From NCBI GenBank assembly GCA_021777135.1, contig JAJYDX010000001.1, positions 372,001-436,000 on the forward strand: 64,000 bases of DNA, in the 5' to 3' direction. Below, piece after piece: positions 33,261 through 39,367 of this stretch (position 1 is its first letter; the number at the start of each line of letters is the position of its first letter). The DNA is from a bacterium. GTDB taxonomy: Bacteria > SZUA-79 > Acidulodesulfobacterales > Acidulodesulfobacteraceae. The position numbers and the translations under genes were made by a program. The notes beneath the pieces were generated by a model. It saw nothing but the letters and a program-made list of their open reading frames with translations. It searched no databases and was not told the DNA's origin.

Positions 33261-34085
33261 ATGGAAAATATTTATTTGCCTAAATTGGCTGAAATTAAGG
33301 AAATTATTCAGGAAACAGCTGATACAAAAACTATACGCCTTACTATAGACGGCGGAGGTATAGATTTTCTGCCCGGTCAGTTTGGAGAATTTTCGTTTAT
33401 GGGAGAGGGTGAATCGACATTTGGACTTTCTTCGTCACCGTTAAGAAAAGAATTTTTTGAGTTCAGCTTTAGGTATTCTGGAAGAGCAACCAGCGGTATA
33501 AATAGTCTAAACCAGGGTGATAAAATAGCATTTAGGGGTCCTTACGGAAATTATTTTGATACGTCAAAGATGAAAGGAAAAAATCTCGTTTTTGTTGGGG
33601 GCGGCATAGGTATGGCACCTGTCAAATCCATTATGGAATACTGTTTAGACCAACGAGACGATTATGGCAAAATAACCATATTATATGGTGCCAGGTCCGT
33701 AAACGATCTTTTATATAAAAACATATTTGACGAATGGAAAAAATATAAAGATACCGAATTAATAGTAACAGTAGATCCCGGCGGGGAAACTTCCGACTGG
33801 ACAGGAAAAGTAGGTTTCGTTCCTACTATTCTCGAACAACTGCCGTTAAAAGGGGAAAACAGCATCGCAATAGTATGCGGACCTCCTATTATGATTAAAT
33901 TTGCTTTGAAATCACTTGAGGAAAAAATGGGATTTGACAAAGCAGATATTATTACAACTCTTGAAAACAGAATGAAATGCGGGCTTGGTAAATGCGGAAG
34001 GTGCAATGTCGGAAGCGTTTACGTATGTAAGGATGGTCCGGTGTTTACCGCAAAGGAGCTTGAAAGTCTTCCAAACGACTTTTAA
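33261..34085 (+). CDS. flxA: FlxA-like NAD(P)H:flavin oxidoreductase subunit
   Basis: A 274-residue ferredoxin-NADP-reductase-like protein. The FAD part has FGLSSSPLR and RGPYGNYF, the pyridine nucleotide motif is VGGGIGMAP, and the C-terminus holds a [2Fe-2S] motif with Cys240, 245, 248 and 256. It is the likely entry point for NADH electrons to Flx-Hdr. The gene order hdrCBA-flxDCBA is the reverse of the flxABCD-hdrABC order known from Desulfovibrio. Confidence 0.9.
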   Translation: MENIYLPKLAEIKEIIQETADTKTIRLTIDGGGIDFLPGQFGEFSFMGEGESTFGLSSSPLRKEFFEFSFRYSGRATSGINSLNQGDKIAFRGPYGNYFDTSKMKGKNLVFVGGGIGMAPVKSIMEYCLDQRDDYGKITILYGARSVNDLLYKNIFDEWKKYKDTELIVTVDPGGETSDWTGKVGFVPTILEQLPLKGENSIAIVCGPPIMIKFALKSLEEKMGFDKADIITTLENRMKCGLGKCGRCNVGSVYVCKDGPVFTAKELESLPNDF

Positions 34086-34097
34086 TATTATACGCAT

Positions 34098-36005
34098 ATG
34101 CAGTTATTATTAATACACGCCGATGATTTTAATTATTCTTTAACAGGAAAGACTCCGGTTGCAGAGGAAATAGACCCTAATATTACTAAGGAAACAGGAA
34201 ACTTTTTTGAAGAACCTTTAGTAGTTTTCTGCACTGTAGAAGAAAGTGACGCAAAAAATACTGCCGGTATTGTTAAACAGGCTTTCAGAGAAATTAAAGA
34301 AATTTCCGATAAACTAAAGCCCAATTTAATAATTTTATATCCTTATGCTCATCTTTCCAATAGTCTTGCCGATCCATCACTTGCTATTTCGGCTCTTAAT
34401 GCTTTAAAAGCCGAATTGGAATCTTTTTATACCGTTTATAGGGCTCCTTTCGGATGGTATAAGAGTTTCAACATTTCGTGCAAGGGTCATCCGCTAAGCG
34501 AATCTTCGAGGCATATAACGGATTCAGCCGCGACCGTTTTAAAAAAAACAAGGGAAGACGTAGTAAAGGAAGTAGAAAGCGAGTTTTATATCTTAAATTA
34601 CGACGGTGCCGAAACAAAAATAGACTTAAAAAATCAAAGCGTATTAGAAGACAGGGTACTTAAAAATTTTCCATCTCTTAGAAAAGTTGTTGCTTATGAA
34701 GAATTTAAAATAAAAGAAGGAGAAACCCCTCCGTCCGTTTCTGCTATGAGAAGACTTGAGATAGCAGATCATGAAGAGAATTCAGACTCCGGTCATCTTA
34801 GGTTTTATCCAAAAGGAACACTTCTATTTAAACTTTTATCTGATTGGGCGGAAGATATTGCCTTAAACCACCTTAATTGCATGGAAATAGAAACTCCACT
34901 GATATATAACTGGAATAAACCTGAAATCAAAGGGCAAGGAGAATCTTTTCATGAAAGGCACTATTCAGTTTTTGTGCCTGATGAAAAATCAGATACCGGC
35001 GGGTTTGCTCCGTCAAAAGAATTTGTCTTAAGATTTGCGGGAGATTTTGGACTTTTTTCTATGCTTAAAGACGCCAAAATGAGCTATAAACAGCTTCCTC
35101 TCAGATTTTACGAAATTTCGAAAAGCTTCAGGTATGAAAAAAGTGGAGAATTATCCGGCTTGAGGAGACTAAGGGGTTTTACTATGCCAGATATTCACAG
35201 TTTCTGTTTAAATTTAGAAGAAGGTTTTAATGAATATCAGGTGCTTTACAGGACTTACGCAGATCTTGCAGAAGGCACCGGAATAGAATATGCTGTGGTA
35301 TTCAGAATTGTAAAAGAGTATTATGACAAATATAAAGACAAAATTGTAGAACTATTAAAATATTCCAAAAAACCGGCGCTTATCGAAGTCTTATCTAAAA
35401 TGAAACACTACTGGGCGCTTAAACATGAATTTCAGGGCGTCGATTCAGTAAATGGTTCGTGTCAACTTTCTACTGTTCAGCTTGATGTAGAAGACGCTAA
35501 AAGGTATGGCCTTAATTTTACGACCGAAACTGGAGAAAAAGCAGGATGCATAATATGTCACTCATCTGTAGGCGCTATTGAAAGATGGATGTATCTCATA
35601 ATAGAAGAGGCGCTTAAAAAGAATATTCCGGTTTTTCCGTTATGGCTCAGTCCTACTCAGGTCAGAATAATTCCCGTGTCAGATAAGTTCATGAATTTTG
35701 CCATAAAACTTAAGGAAGATATATTCAAATCCGATATAAGGGTAGATATAGACGACAGGGATTTCAGTTTAGGCAAAAAAATTATGTTTGCCGAGGAAGA
35801 GTGGGTTCCGTATATAATAGTAGTCGGGCAAAAAGAATCTGAGAGCGGCGTTCTTTCCGTAAGGGACAGATACAATGAAAGAAAGAATTTTAATTTTACC
35901 ACGGCGGATTTCATAAAAGAAGTCAAAACAGGTACTGAAGGTATGCCTGTCAGAAAACTAATTTTACCGGATATGCTTTCAAAAAGACCTATATTCGTCG
36001 GATAA
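34098..36005 (+). CDS. thrS: Threonyl-tRNA synthetase, archaeal type with archaeal editing domain
   Basis: A 635-residue ThrRS. Residues 1-140 match the D-aminoacyl-deacylase-like editing domain found in archaeal ThrRS (LLIHADDF, YPYAHLSNSLADPS, APFGWYKSFNISCKGHPL); bacterial enzymes use unrelated TGS and SAD domains here. The class II core follows (motif 2 region RFYEISKSFRYE, then LRRLRGFTMPDIHSFC), and the anticodon-binding domain runs from about 515. Two zinc ligands are in place (His367 and His488), but the position where I expect the Cys ligand reads Asp316 in AGDFG. The gene begins 12 bases after flxA, so it may share that transcript. Horizontal transfer from archaea or a lineage with this type is likely. 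Confidence 0.92.
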   Translation: MQLLLIHADDFNYSLTGKTPVAEEIDPNITKETGNFFEEPLVVFCTVEESDAKNTAGIVKQAFREIKEISDKLKPNLIILYPYAHLSNSLADPSLAISALNALKAELESFYTVYRAPFGWYKSFNISCKGHPLSESSRHITDSAATVLKKTREDVVKEVESEFYILNYDGAETKIDLKNQSVLEDRVLKNFPSLRKVVAYEEFKIKEGETPPSVSAMRRLEIADHEENSDSGHLRFYPKGTLLFKLLSDWAEDIALNHLNCMEIETPLIYNWNKPEIKGQGESFHERHYSVFVPDEKSDTGGFAPSKEFVLRFAGDFGLFSMLKDAKMSYKQLPLRFYEISKSFRYEKSGELSGLRRLRGFTMPDIHSFCLNLEEGFNEYQVLYRTYADLAEGTGIEYAVVFRIVKEYYDKYKDKIVELLKYSKKPALIEVLSKMKHYWALKHEFQGVDSVNGSCQLSTVQLDVEDAKRYGLNFTTETGEKAGCIICHSSVGAIERWMYLIIEEALKKNIPVFPLWLSPTQVRIIPVSDKFMNFAIKLKEDIFKSDIRVDIDDRDFSLGKKIMFAEEEWVPYIIVVGQKESESGVLSVRDRYNERKNFNFTTADFIKEVKTGTEGMPVRKLILPDMLSKRPIFVG

Positions 36006-36052: not shown

Positions 36053-37297
36053 ATGGATAGTGCGTTAAACGAAATTGAGATAAAAGATGAAACTTCAGTT
36101 AGAAAAAGTGTTACTTTAAAATTAGACGAAACAAGGGCGCAGGAACTCTTTCAAAAGAAGCTAGAATCCGCTGCAAAAAAAGCAAATATAAAAGGTTTCA
36201 GACCTGGCAAAGCGCCAATTTCTATAATAAAAAAATATTATGAGCAGGAACTAATAGAAGAGGCCGCAGCAGAAATTTTAAACGAAGATTTTAGAAAAAT
36301 TATTTTGGAAAAAGGTATATATGTGATAGGAACTCCTTCATTAGAGAAAAAAACAGAAAGCGAATATTCGATATCTTTCGATGTTATGCCTGAAGTCAAA
36401 GATTTAAATCTCGATATAAAAGTTAAAAAAGTTAAAAAACGGGATATAAATGACGAAGTTATTAAAGAGGAAATGGATTTTCTTTTAGAAAGGCTAGCTG
36501 ATCAGGAAAAATTAGACGATTCAGCTATAATAAACAGAGAAGATAAATATTTCGTTAAAATAGACTATGTAACAATAGATGAAACAGGAAAAGAAGTTGA
36601 CAGCGCGAAGGATTATTCCATAAGCCTTAATTCCAGCATTATAGACAAAACATTTGAGGCTTCATTCGTAGGAAAGAAAAAAGGTGATAGTTTCGAATTT
36701 GACGATAAAGAAAGAAAAGTAATTGTTAAAGGGTTTATTAAAGAAATAGTTAAAAAAATAATGCCTGAATTAAATGCGGAAACTATTAAAAACTTTGGCG
36801 ATTTTAAAGATGTTGCAGAGTTTAAACAATACGTAGAAAAAAGTCTTAACGAATATGAGGAAAAAAGATACAAGGATGCTTTGAGGGCATCAATAGCTGA
36901 AGAAATAATAAAACTTAACCCAATCGAGCTCCCGGATAGTGTGGTAGAAGAAGATGCAAAGTCAAGATTAGAAGAAATGAAGAAACAGGGTAAATATAAA
37001 GACATAAATGAAAAACAGGCAGGAGAGTTTATGGGTATCTTAAGAATTATGGCGAAAAGGGATATCGCACTTTATCTTTTGCTGTCAGAAATAGAAAAAG
37101 CAGAAAATATAACAGTAACAGAGCCAGATTTTGAAGACTTTTACAAGCGTACGGCCTCTATATCCAATATGAAAGAAGAAGAAGTTAAAGGTTTTTATTC
37201 TGCGAAAGAAGCTCAGGAAAACTTAAAAAATGCTCTACTTGAAGACAAGACGTTTGATTTTCTTATCCAGAACAAGGTATCATATATTGAAGAATAA
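36053..37297 (+). CDS. tig: Trigger factor (ribosome-bound chaperone)
   Basis: A 414-residue peptidyl-prolyl isomerase-type chaperone. The ribosome-docking signature GFRPGKAP is at 48-55, followed by the PPIase-like middle region and a long helical C-terminal arm. It binds near L23 at the peptide exit. It leads the classic tig-clpP-clpX set and has an AGGAG site before the ATG. Confidence 0.94.
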   Translation: MDSALNEIEIKDETSVRKSVTLKLDETRAQELFQKKLESAAKKANIKGFRPGKAPISIIKKYYEQELIEEAAAEILNEDFRKIILEKGIYVIGTPSLEKKTESEYSISFDVMPEVKDLNLDIKVKKVKKRDINDEVIKEEMDFLLERLADQEKLDDSAIINREDKYFVKIDYVTIDETGKEVDSAKDYSISLNSSIIDKTFEASFVGKKKGDSFEFDDKERKVIVKGFIKEIVKKIMPELNAETIKNFGDFKDVAEFKQYVEKSLNEYEEKRYKDALRASIAEEIIKLNPIELPDSVVEEDAKSRLEEMKKQGKYKDINEKQAGEFMGILRIMAKRDIALYLLLSEIEKAENITVTEPDFEDFYKRTASISNMKEEEVKGFYSAKEAQENLKNALLEDKTFDFLIQNKVSYIEE

Positions 37298-37329: not shown

Positions 37330-37929
37330 ATGTCGCTGGTACCTATAGTAGTAGAACAAACGCACAGAGGAGAAAGGTCTTACGATATATATTCCCGACT
37401 TTTAAAAGACAGAATTATATTTATAGGGGAGGCTATAGACGATACGTTTGCTAATCTTATTATAGCACAGCTTTTGTTTCTAGAGTCGGAAGATCCCGAG
37501 AAAGACATAAATATATATATAAATTCACCTGGAGGAGTTATAACAGCCGGACTTGCAATTTACGATACTATTCAATATATAAAGCCTGATGTTTCTACGC
37601 TTTGCATGGGTCAGGCCGCAAGTATGGGAGCAGTGCTTCTTGCAGCCGGAGCGAAAGGTAAGAGATTTGCATTACCTCATGCCAGGATTATGATACACCA
37701 ACCTCTTGGAGGATTTCAAGGACAAGCTACAGATATAGATATTCAGGCTAGAGAAATTTTAAGAATGAGGGAAGAATTAAATCAAATTTTAGCTTCCCAT
37801 ACCGGACAGTCTATAGATAAAATAAGGGAAGATACCGAAAGAGATTTCTTTATGAGCGGGATTCAATCCGTTGATTATGGGATTATTGATAAAGTTGTTG
37901 AAAAAAAAGAAATAAAAAATGTAAAATAA
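37330..37929 (+). CDS. clpP: ATP-dependent Clp protease proteolytic subunit
   Basis: A 199-residue serine protease with the catalytic triad Ser98 (GQAASMG), His123 (MIHQPLGG) and Asp172. It forms the double seven-ring chamber served by ClpX. Length and motifs are standard. It lies 32 bases after tig. Confidence 0.98.
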
Positions 37930-37968
37930 TTTTTTAAAATTTATTAAGATATATAATTATAATCGGTT

Positions 37969-37991
37969 TATATTGGGCTACTGCCAATATA
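37969..37991 (+). promoter_or_regulatory. Hairpin before clpX
   Basis: TATATTGG (37969-37976) pairs perfectly with CCAATATA (37984-37991) around a 7-base loop GCTACTG. There is no T-run, and it ends 17 bases before the clpX start, so it may be an mRNA processing or stability element rather than a terminator. Confidence 0.4.
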
Positions 37992-38008
37992 CATAGAGGT
38001 ATTCAATA

Positions 38009-39367
38009 ATGGCAAGAAAAAGCAATAACAATAATAATGATGATAATTACGGAAGAGAGCTTTACTGTTCTTTTTGCGGAAAATCTCAGGACGAGGTAAG
38101 AAAGCTTATTGCCGGCCCCTCGGTTTATATATGTGATGAATGCATAAGTCTTTGCAACGATATTATATCAGAAGAAAGCAAACCGGTTCCGGCAGAAATA
38201 AAAGTCGAAAATTATTTATATAAGCCTATAGAAATTAAAGCTTTTTTAGACCAGTATGTAGTAGGTCAGGAAAGGGCCAAAAAAATTCTTTCCGTAGCAG
38301 TTTATAACCATTACAAAAGAATAGAGCATAATCTTTCGTTCAAAAACTCTGAAAAATCACGCAATAATAAATCTGGCAAATTAAATTCCGATTTTAGTAA
38401 TATACATGATAAGGGTAATTTAGATGTGGAGATGCAGAAGAGTAATATCTTAATCATCGGTCCAACCGGAAGCGGCAAAACACTGCTTGCCCAGACGCTT
38501 GCCAGAATGCTTGACTTGCCCTTTGCTATCGCCGATGCCACGACGCTTACTGAAGCCGGCTATGTTGGCGAGGATGTAGAAAGCATTTTACTTTCGTTAT
38601 TACAAAATGCTGATTACGATGTTGAAAGAGCGCAAAAAGGTATTATATATATTGATGAAATTGACAAGATTGCGAAAAAAACTGATAACGTTTCCATAAC
38701 AAGGGATGTTTCAGGCGAAGGCGTACAGCAGGCCCTTCTAAAAATTATTGAAGGAACCGTTGCAAACGTGCCCCCAAAAGGCGGCAGAAAACATCCGCAT
38801 CAGGAATTTCTTAGGATAGACACTAACAATATACTTTTTATTTGCGGAGGCGCATTTAACGGTTTAGATAAAATTATAGAAAAAAGAATACACCAACAAC
38901 CTATAGGTTTTAATGCAGAAGTTAATTCAGGCAAATCAGTCAGTCCCTACGAAATAATGAAACAGGTTGAAACCAAAGACTTGTTAAAGTATGGATTAAT
39001 TCCAGAATTTATCGGTAGGCTTCCAGTTACCGCAACTTTGGAAGAATTGGATGAAAAAGCCTTGGTAGAAATTTTAACTAAGCCTAAAAATGCATTGATT
39101 AAACAGTATCAGAAATTATTTGAGCTGGAGGACGTAAATTTAAGATTTACCGATTCCGCCATAAAAGAAATTACTAAAAAGGCTGTAAGGCACGGATCTG
39201 GTGCAAGAGGTTTAAGGACTATTTTAGAATCTATAATGTTAGACGTTATGTATGAAATTCCTACAGACCCGACTATTAAAGAATGCGTTATAAACGACGA
39301 TGTTATAATTAATGGCGGTCAGCCTATTCTTCTTTACGAAAAGGATGCCGGAGCAAAATCGATTTAA
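38009..39367 (+). CDS. clpX: Clp protease ATP-binding subunit ClpX
   Basis: A 452-residue AAA+ unfoldase. An Asn-rich start precedes the zinc-binding domain (Cys20, 23, 42, 45). Walker A GPTGSGKT is at 151-158 and Walker B is IIYIDEIDK. The polar stretch at about 107-142, between the linker and Walker A, is longer than in E. coli ClpX. ClpX delivers unfolded proteins to ClpP, encoded upstream. The usual lon neighbour is missing here and found instead at 57-60 kb. Confidence 0.97.

Follow-up and report, generated by a model that had tools for sequence, protein, structure and literature searches.

The window analysed here, a stretch of 64,000 nucleotides, lies on the 589-kb contig C54 of a metagenome-assembled genome (2.12 Mb in 92 contigs, scored 100% complete, with an estimated contamination of 2.11%) from Ca. 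Acidulodesulfobacterales, an order of acid mine drainage linked to sulfate reduction and possibly to sulfide oxidation (PMC6776010); this placement follows from its relatives in named records, among them Ca. Acididesulfobacter diazotrophicus and SZUA-79. The window carries a gene encoding an archaeal-type threonyl-tRNA synthetase (ThrRS), which is preceded by an flxA-like gene and followed by tig, clpP and clpX (Table 1). The thrS ORF starts with ATG, and 12 nt separate it from the flxA-like stop; its position and this gap had been given in a preliminary description of the DNA and were confirmed from the ORF coordinates.

Table 1. Features of the thrS locus, with positions in the window
Feature	Position	Strand	Evidence
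flxA-like FAD/NAD-binding subunit (sulfhydrogenase gamma / AsrB-like), conserved upstream neighbour	33261..34085	+	Pfam, NCBIfam, synteny
thrS, archaeal-type (ThrRS-R, Asp subtype) threonyl-tRNA synthetase, 635 aa	34098..36005	+	domains, family model, sole-copy search, trees
DTD-like editing domain PF08915, residues 1-140	34098..34517	+	Pfam; alignment with PDB 4rrf, 2hl1
His85 (P. abyssi His83), editing site	34350..34352	+	alignment, column counts; PMC4491819
Lys122 (P. abyssi Lys121), positions attacking water	34461..34463	+	alignment, column counts; PMC4491819
Glu135 (P. abyssi Glu134)	34500..34502	+	alignment, column counts
Class II catalytic core PF00587, residues 307-504	35016..35609	+	Pfam
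Asp316, column of the zinc-ligand Cys (E. coli Cys334), clade-defining change	35043..35045	+	gap-free alignments, column counts
His367 (E. coli zinc ligand His385), conserved	35196..35198	+	alignment, column counts
His488 (E. coli zinc ligand His511), conserved	35559..35561	+	alignment, column counts
Anticodon-binding domain PF03129, residues 521-610	35658..35927	+	Pfam
tig (trigger factor), conserved downstream neighbour	36053..37297	+	Pfam, NCBIfam, synteny
clpP and clpX, conserved downstream	37330..39367	+	named from sequence and gene order

The first 140 residues had been described as an archaeal editing domain standing in place of the bacterial TGS and SAD domains, and this is what was found. 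The archaeal ThrRS editing domain PF08915 matched residues 1-140 with 152 bits (E 1.2e-44), well over its cut-off of 30, and could be aligned end to end with the solved archaeal editing domains 4rrf and 2hl1, and a Pfam profile search of the 635-aa protein detected neither TGS nor tRNA_SAD (N2), the marks of bacterial ThrRS-C. The full-length NCBIfam model of archaeal ThrRS (NF003068) scored 662 bits, with a curated cut-off of 484. PF08915 without TGS or N2, the NF003068 score, the editing residues and the tree position described below all place the protein in ThrRS-R. The domain order, which had been called unusual, is the normal one for archaeal ThrRS. The window enzyme shares with the ThrRS-R of Pyrococcus abyssi and Methanocaldococcus jannaschii this order, a PF08915 domain with the equivalents of His83, Lys121 and Glu134, the class II core and NF003068, but differs in its bacterial host, in an Asp at the zinc-ligand Cys and in the bacterial tRNAs that it meets, including a U73 tRNA-Gly. 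With the E. coli type of ThrRS-C it has in common the class II core, the anticodon domain, the equivalents of His385 and His511 and, presumably, threonine charging, whereas a DTD-like domain takes the place of TGS and of the N2 editing domain with its Cys182. That editing cysteine is oxidisable in E. coli ThrRS (PMC7337905), and one might speculate that a DTD-like domain without it is an advantage in oxidative, iron-rich acid water.

By analogy with the mechanism and residue roles established for archaeal ThrRS (PMC4491819), the N-terminal domain would hydrolyse mischarged Ser-tRNA-Thr, with the 2'-OH of A76 as the catalyst and Lys122 placing the water. The class II core would activate threonine and charge bacterial tRNA-Thr through G1-C72, C2-G71 and the NGU anticodon. 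Editing by the Methanosarcina mazei enzyme reportedly acts on archaeal tRNA-Thr only, as cited in PMC11295145, so that editing in the window's bacterium is not guaranteed.

The preliminary description had called for a search for a second, bacterial thrS elsewhere in the genome, and none was found. The TIGR00418 profile, which gave matches in all 14 control genomes, detected one ThrRS in the source genome, and a search with the 635-aa protein matched only itself and one ProRS-like ORF. The single TGS-bearing ORF of the genome (754 aa) is RelA/SpoT-like and the single SAD-bearing ORF is AlaRS-like, both named by eye from the sequence. The same profile found no ThrRS besides the Asp-type enzyme in 14 genomes tested, bacterial and archaeal (G000, which is the source genome, G016, G019, G020, G148, G285, G386, G387, G389, G397, G399, G456, G477 and G550), which argues that it must be functional. 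A second ThrRS is present beside the Asp-type one in G388 (archaeon SI047_bin24). In this archaeon, L093 (591 aa) joins an editing domain to a ThrRS core of the common type, and L052 (496 aa) is an Asp-type ThrRS-R core that lacks an editing domain; the two may be a split synthesis/editing pair.

The gene order flxA-like, thrS, tig, clpP, clpX was found in 23/23 loci of the family with DNA on both sides; one additional family locus begins inside thrS and has the same downstream genes. A 92-contig assembly with some estimated contamination could raise the suspicion that an archaeal gene was mis-binned. The chance of this is practically nil, as thrS lies within a long contig, flanked by bacterial genes, has a GC content like that of its neighbours and is the sole ThrRS, and the identical neighbours in all the two-flank loci, which come from many assemblies, refute a binning artefact. 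The GC content of thrS (0.365, with 0.32-0.42 in the neighbours) fits an old acquisition. The co-location with electron-bifurcation genes, noted earlier as unusual, proved to be stable, but it is positional only: the flxA-thrS gap is short in the genus to which the window belongs and measures roughly 280-640 nt in others of the same family, so that the tight coupling is a local state and no bioenergetic link follows from it. The constant order and the 12-nt spacing in the window would fit a co-regulation of translation with flavin-based electron bifurcation. This is nevertheless quite unlikely given the wider spacing elsewhere, the absence of flx genes at three archaeal kin loci and the downstream tig-clpP-clpX genes that run in the same direction, so that the gene may simply have been inserted upstream of tig. 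At those three archaeal loci none of the flxA-like, tig, clpP or clpX neighbours was found. Upstream of thrS no riboswitch or T-box was detected, the Rfam matches in the window being four tRNAs only, and a promoter/terminator scan was uninformative, with 35 promoter-like sites where shuffled sequence gave 25 on average.

PF08915 was present in 27/30 genomes in a larger sample of the Ca. Acidulodesulfobacterales/SZUA-79 family, and none of the three genomes that lacked it exceeds 78% completeness. Two trees were built, a first one of 93 rows and a more careful one of 56. In the latter the family formed one clade (100/100) inside an 18-row group, together with ten archaeal rows (100/99) from Thermoplasmata PFL9, Sigynarchaeota SQRJ_79, archaeon SI047_bin24 and seven more. 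The ribosomal protein marker L32e was detected in 9/10 of the archaeal source genomes and in 0/8 bacterial genomes tested; none was found in the tenth archaeal one, G411. The copies of two other bacteria, G148 and G285, form a long branch sister to the 18-row group (93/92), and the bacterial ThrRS of families f66 and f69 group with other archaea. A tree of the core only retained the 18-row group (support 98), and one of the editing domain only had too few columns to resolve. A single clade of all bacterial rows (p-AU 2e-62) and a single clade of the family with G148/G285 alone (p-AU 1.7e-4) were both rejected, p-values that are indicative because the groups were chosen after the first tree had been seen. 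The protein thus lies among archaeal sequences with editing domains, neither inside the TGS-bearing bacterial ThrRS nor beside relatives that all lack the archaeal editing domain, the two outcomes that the preliminary description had named as refuting. The nearest tree kin, the ThrRS of PFL9 (L049/L094) and SQRJ_79 (L051/L095), carry the same Asp at the metal column with about 50-53% full-length identity, but belong to archaeal genomes and have no flx or tig neighbours in the DNA examined. Identity to archaeal ThrRS goes no higher than about 50-57%, so that the donor must be remote or missing from the sampled genomes.

Very probably, then, the sole ThrRS of this bacterium is a complete archaeal-type ThrRS-R that was acquired by the ancestor of the family, displaced the bacterial thrS and was vertically inherited from then on. 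The gene would have reached that ancestor horizontally, the likeliest donor being an archaeon with affinity to the Thermoplasmata/Asgard lineages, and would have settled between the flxA-like gene and tig. One could instead suppose that ThrRS-R predates the archaeal/bacterial split and was kept vertically in a few bacteria, since it is scattered over bacterial lineages and has been proposed as a pre-LUCA form (PMC4427996, PMC3191353). We consider this very unlikely, as the single deep bacterial clade that it predicts is the first of the two rejected above and the bacterial copies occupy at least three separate positions in the tree, of which two adjoin different archaea. ThrRS-R is otherwise mostly archaeal, which requires a transfer into bacteria at some point. 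Inside the Asp-type subclade the family and its archaeal kin form an open fork, so that the last transfer may have run in either direction, a later step from bacterium to archaeon included. This open fork, and the sister position of the bacterial G148/G285 copies to the rest of the Asp clade, would fit an Asp type that originated in bacteria following an earlier transfer and was then returned to Thermoplasmata/Asgard archaea. Such a return is rather unlikely, as the archaeal kin comprise several separate lineages (10 rows), against one clade for the bacterial family, and ThrRS-R outside the Asp clade is mostly archaeal.

The Asp subclade is defined by its metal site. In the 93-row alignment the column of E. 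coli Cys334 holds Asp in 25/25 rows of this subclade (13 from the family, 10 archaeal and 2 from other bacteria) and Cys in 68/68 others, with no third letter, and the columns of His367, His488 and Asp365 are invariant in all 93 rows. The alignment is gap-free at Asp316, both within ThrRS-R and against solved bacterial ThrRS (GDFG versus NCPG or NCPH). Both His of the canonical Cys/His/His site are therefore present and the Cys is replaced, so the window enzyme was filed as a variant. Cys334 has been called absolutely conserved in ThrRS and C334S is lethal in E. coli (PMC7337905), a lethality that advises caution against assuming that Asp works in the same way; in the open-access literature we found nothing on an Asp at this position. 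The change could be taken to mean that the enzyme lost its zinc Cys because it charges another amino acid and is not a ThrRS at all, a reading to which the reported conservation and lethality lend some weight. It is scarcely credible for a protein that is the only ThrRS of complete bacterial genomes and of archaea, retains His367, His488 and Asp365 and scores above the family-model cut-off. Taking the enzyme as a ThrRS, the simplest reading of the column is a 2-His-1-Asp metal site, in which the metal that senses the threonine hydroxyl would be held by Asp316, His367 and His488 in place of Cys/His/His. An AlphaFold model from 15 sequences had a mean pLDDT of 68, with values below 50 in the catalytic region near residue 316, and thus permits no inference on metal geometry.

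All three tRNA-Thr genes (isoacceptors) of the genome have U73, G1-C72 and C2-G71. U73 seems to be needed for editing by the archaeal domains (PMC11295145, PMC8762117), and the swap was feasible because the tRNA-Thr of this bacterium carries the base that these domains apparently select. A pattern scan detected U73 tRNA-Thr with an encoded CCA in 220/386 bacterial genomes and A73 in 21, of which about 13 look like real tRNA-Thr by eye. Since U73 is the commoner state, most bacteria pose no discriminator (identity) barrier. The idea that U73 is a co-adapted marker of archaeal-ThrRS hosts was rejected on the same counts, U73 being the usual bacterial state. The A73 of E. coli tRNA-Thr is a minority state in this 386-genome sample.

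In vitro, Gly-tRNA-Gly is a better substrate than Ser-tRNA-Thr for the editing domains of archaeal ThrRS (PMC4491819). In archaea, A73 is the identity base of tRNA-Gly (PMC9976931). A co-adapted tRNA-Gly with A73, escaping misediting, was considered for the source genome and rejected, as all four tRNA-Gly genes read have U73; tRNA-Cys has U73 as well. Misediting of Gly-tRNA-Gly is therefore a potential hazard here, and the same concern has been raised for SepRS fusions (PMC8762117). The bacterium would face a sharp fidelity problem, with an archaeal editing domain that seems to read U73 working beside a U73 tRNA-Gly where archaea have A73, and Gly-tRNA-Gly may be spared through EF-Tu, through tethering of the domain or through an altered specificity. 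We tentatively suggest, as a possibility somewhat short of probable, that these enzymes form a second ThrRS metal-site class, with a 2-His-1-Asp site possibly binding a metal other than zinc, for example Fe(II), which would serve as the only ThrRS of a whole bacterial order and of several archaeal lineages and whose U73-reading editing beside a U73 tRNA-Gly would demand some safeguard that protects Gly-tRNA-Gly from hydrolysis.

ThrRS-R has been reported as archaea-only (PMC3191353), and our search of the open-access literature returned nothing on an archaeal ThrRS in this bacterial order. Outside the family, PF08915 was detected in 21/356 sampled bacterial genomes (~6%; 2 of the 21 below the curated cut-off), so that archaeal-type editing domains and ThrRS are not unique to the window. 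Full-length archaeal-type ThrRS were found among these matches in families f66 and f69 and in G148 and G285, and in 4/4 independent bacterial carriers tested (G238, G094, G148, G285) the archaeal-type enzyme is, as in the window, the sole ThrRS. The copies of f66 and f69 (L053, L055, L056, L101-L103) differ from the window's in keeping the normal zinc Cys and in clustering with other archaea, and represent separate acquisitions. The horizontal replacement proposed in the preliminary description thus stands as far as an archaeal-type ThrRS displaced the bacterial enzyme, but the event is older and wider than had been thought, covering the whole family, and has counterparts in other bacteria. 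Throughout an order, an essential bacterial enzyme appears to have given way completely to an archaeal ThrRS-R, and its separate replacement in other bacterial families indicates that the exchange is repeatable.

The remaining non-family bacterial matches are short ORFs, mostly free-standing domains, and three fusions to a SepRS core. The free-standing PF08915 domains (129-190 aa) occur in several bacterial families (L105, L106, L107, L108, L109, L110, L113 and L099), and since G036 and G372 own a normal bacterial ThrRS besides, these domains may serve in trans-editing or act on another substrate. The fusions, of a type already published (PMC5424206, PMC8762117), span 638-695 aa and carry a Thr-editing domain at the N-terminus, ahead of a SepRS core (L097 in G148, L100 in G285 and L104 in G312); L100 scored 440 bits with TIGR00470, and the SepRS core of the G148 and G312 copies was read by eye. 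G148 and G285 have their archaeal-type ThrRS in addition to the fusion. Four archaeal ThrRS (L121, L125, L130 and L175) combine the PF08915 editing domain with a core of apparently common (bacterial) type and are natural chimeras. Elsewhere in the source genome, three contigs (C19, C47 and C86; L082-L084) carry a tRNA-His within about 270 nt of their ends, with equal scores, hinting at a repeated element or an integration site at tRNA-His.
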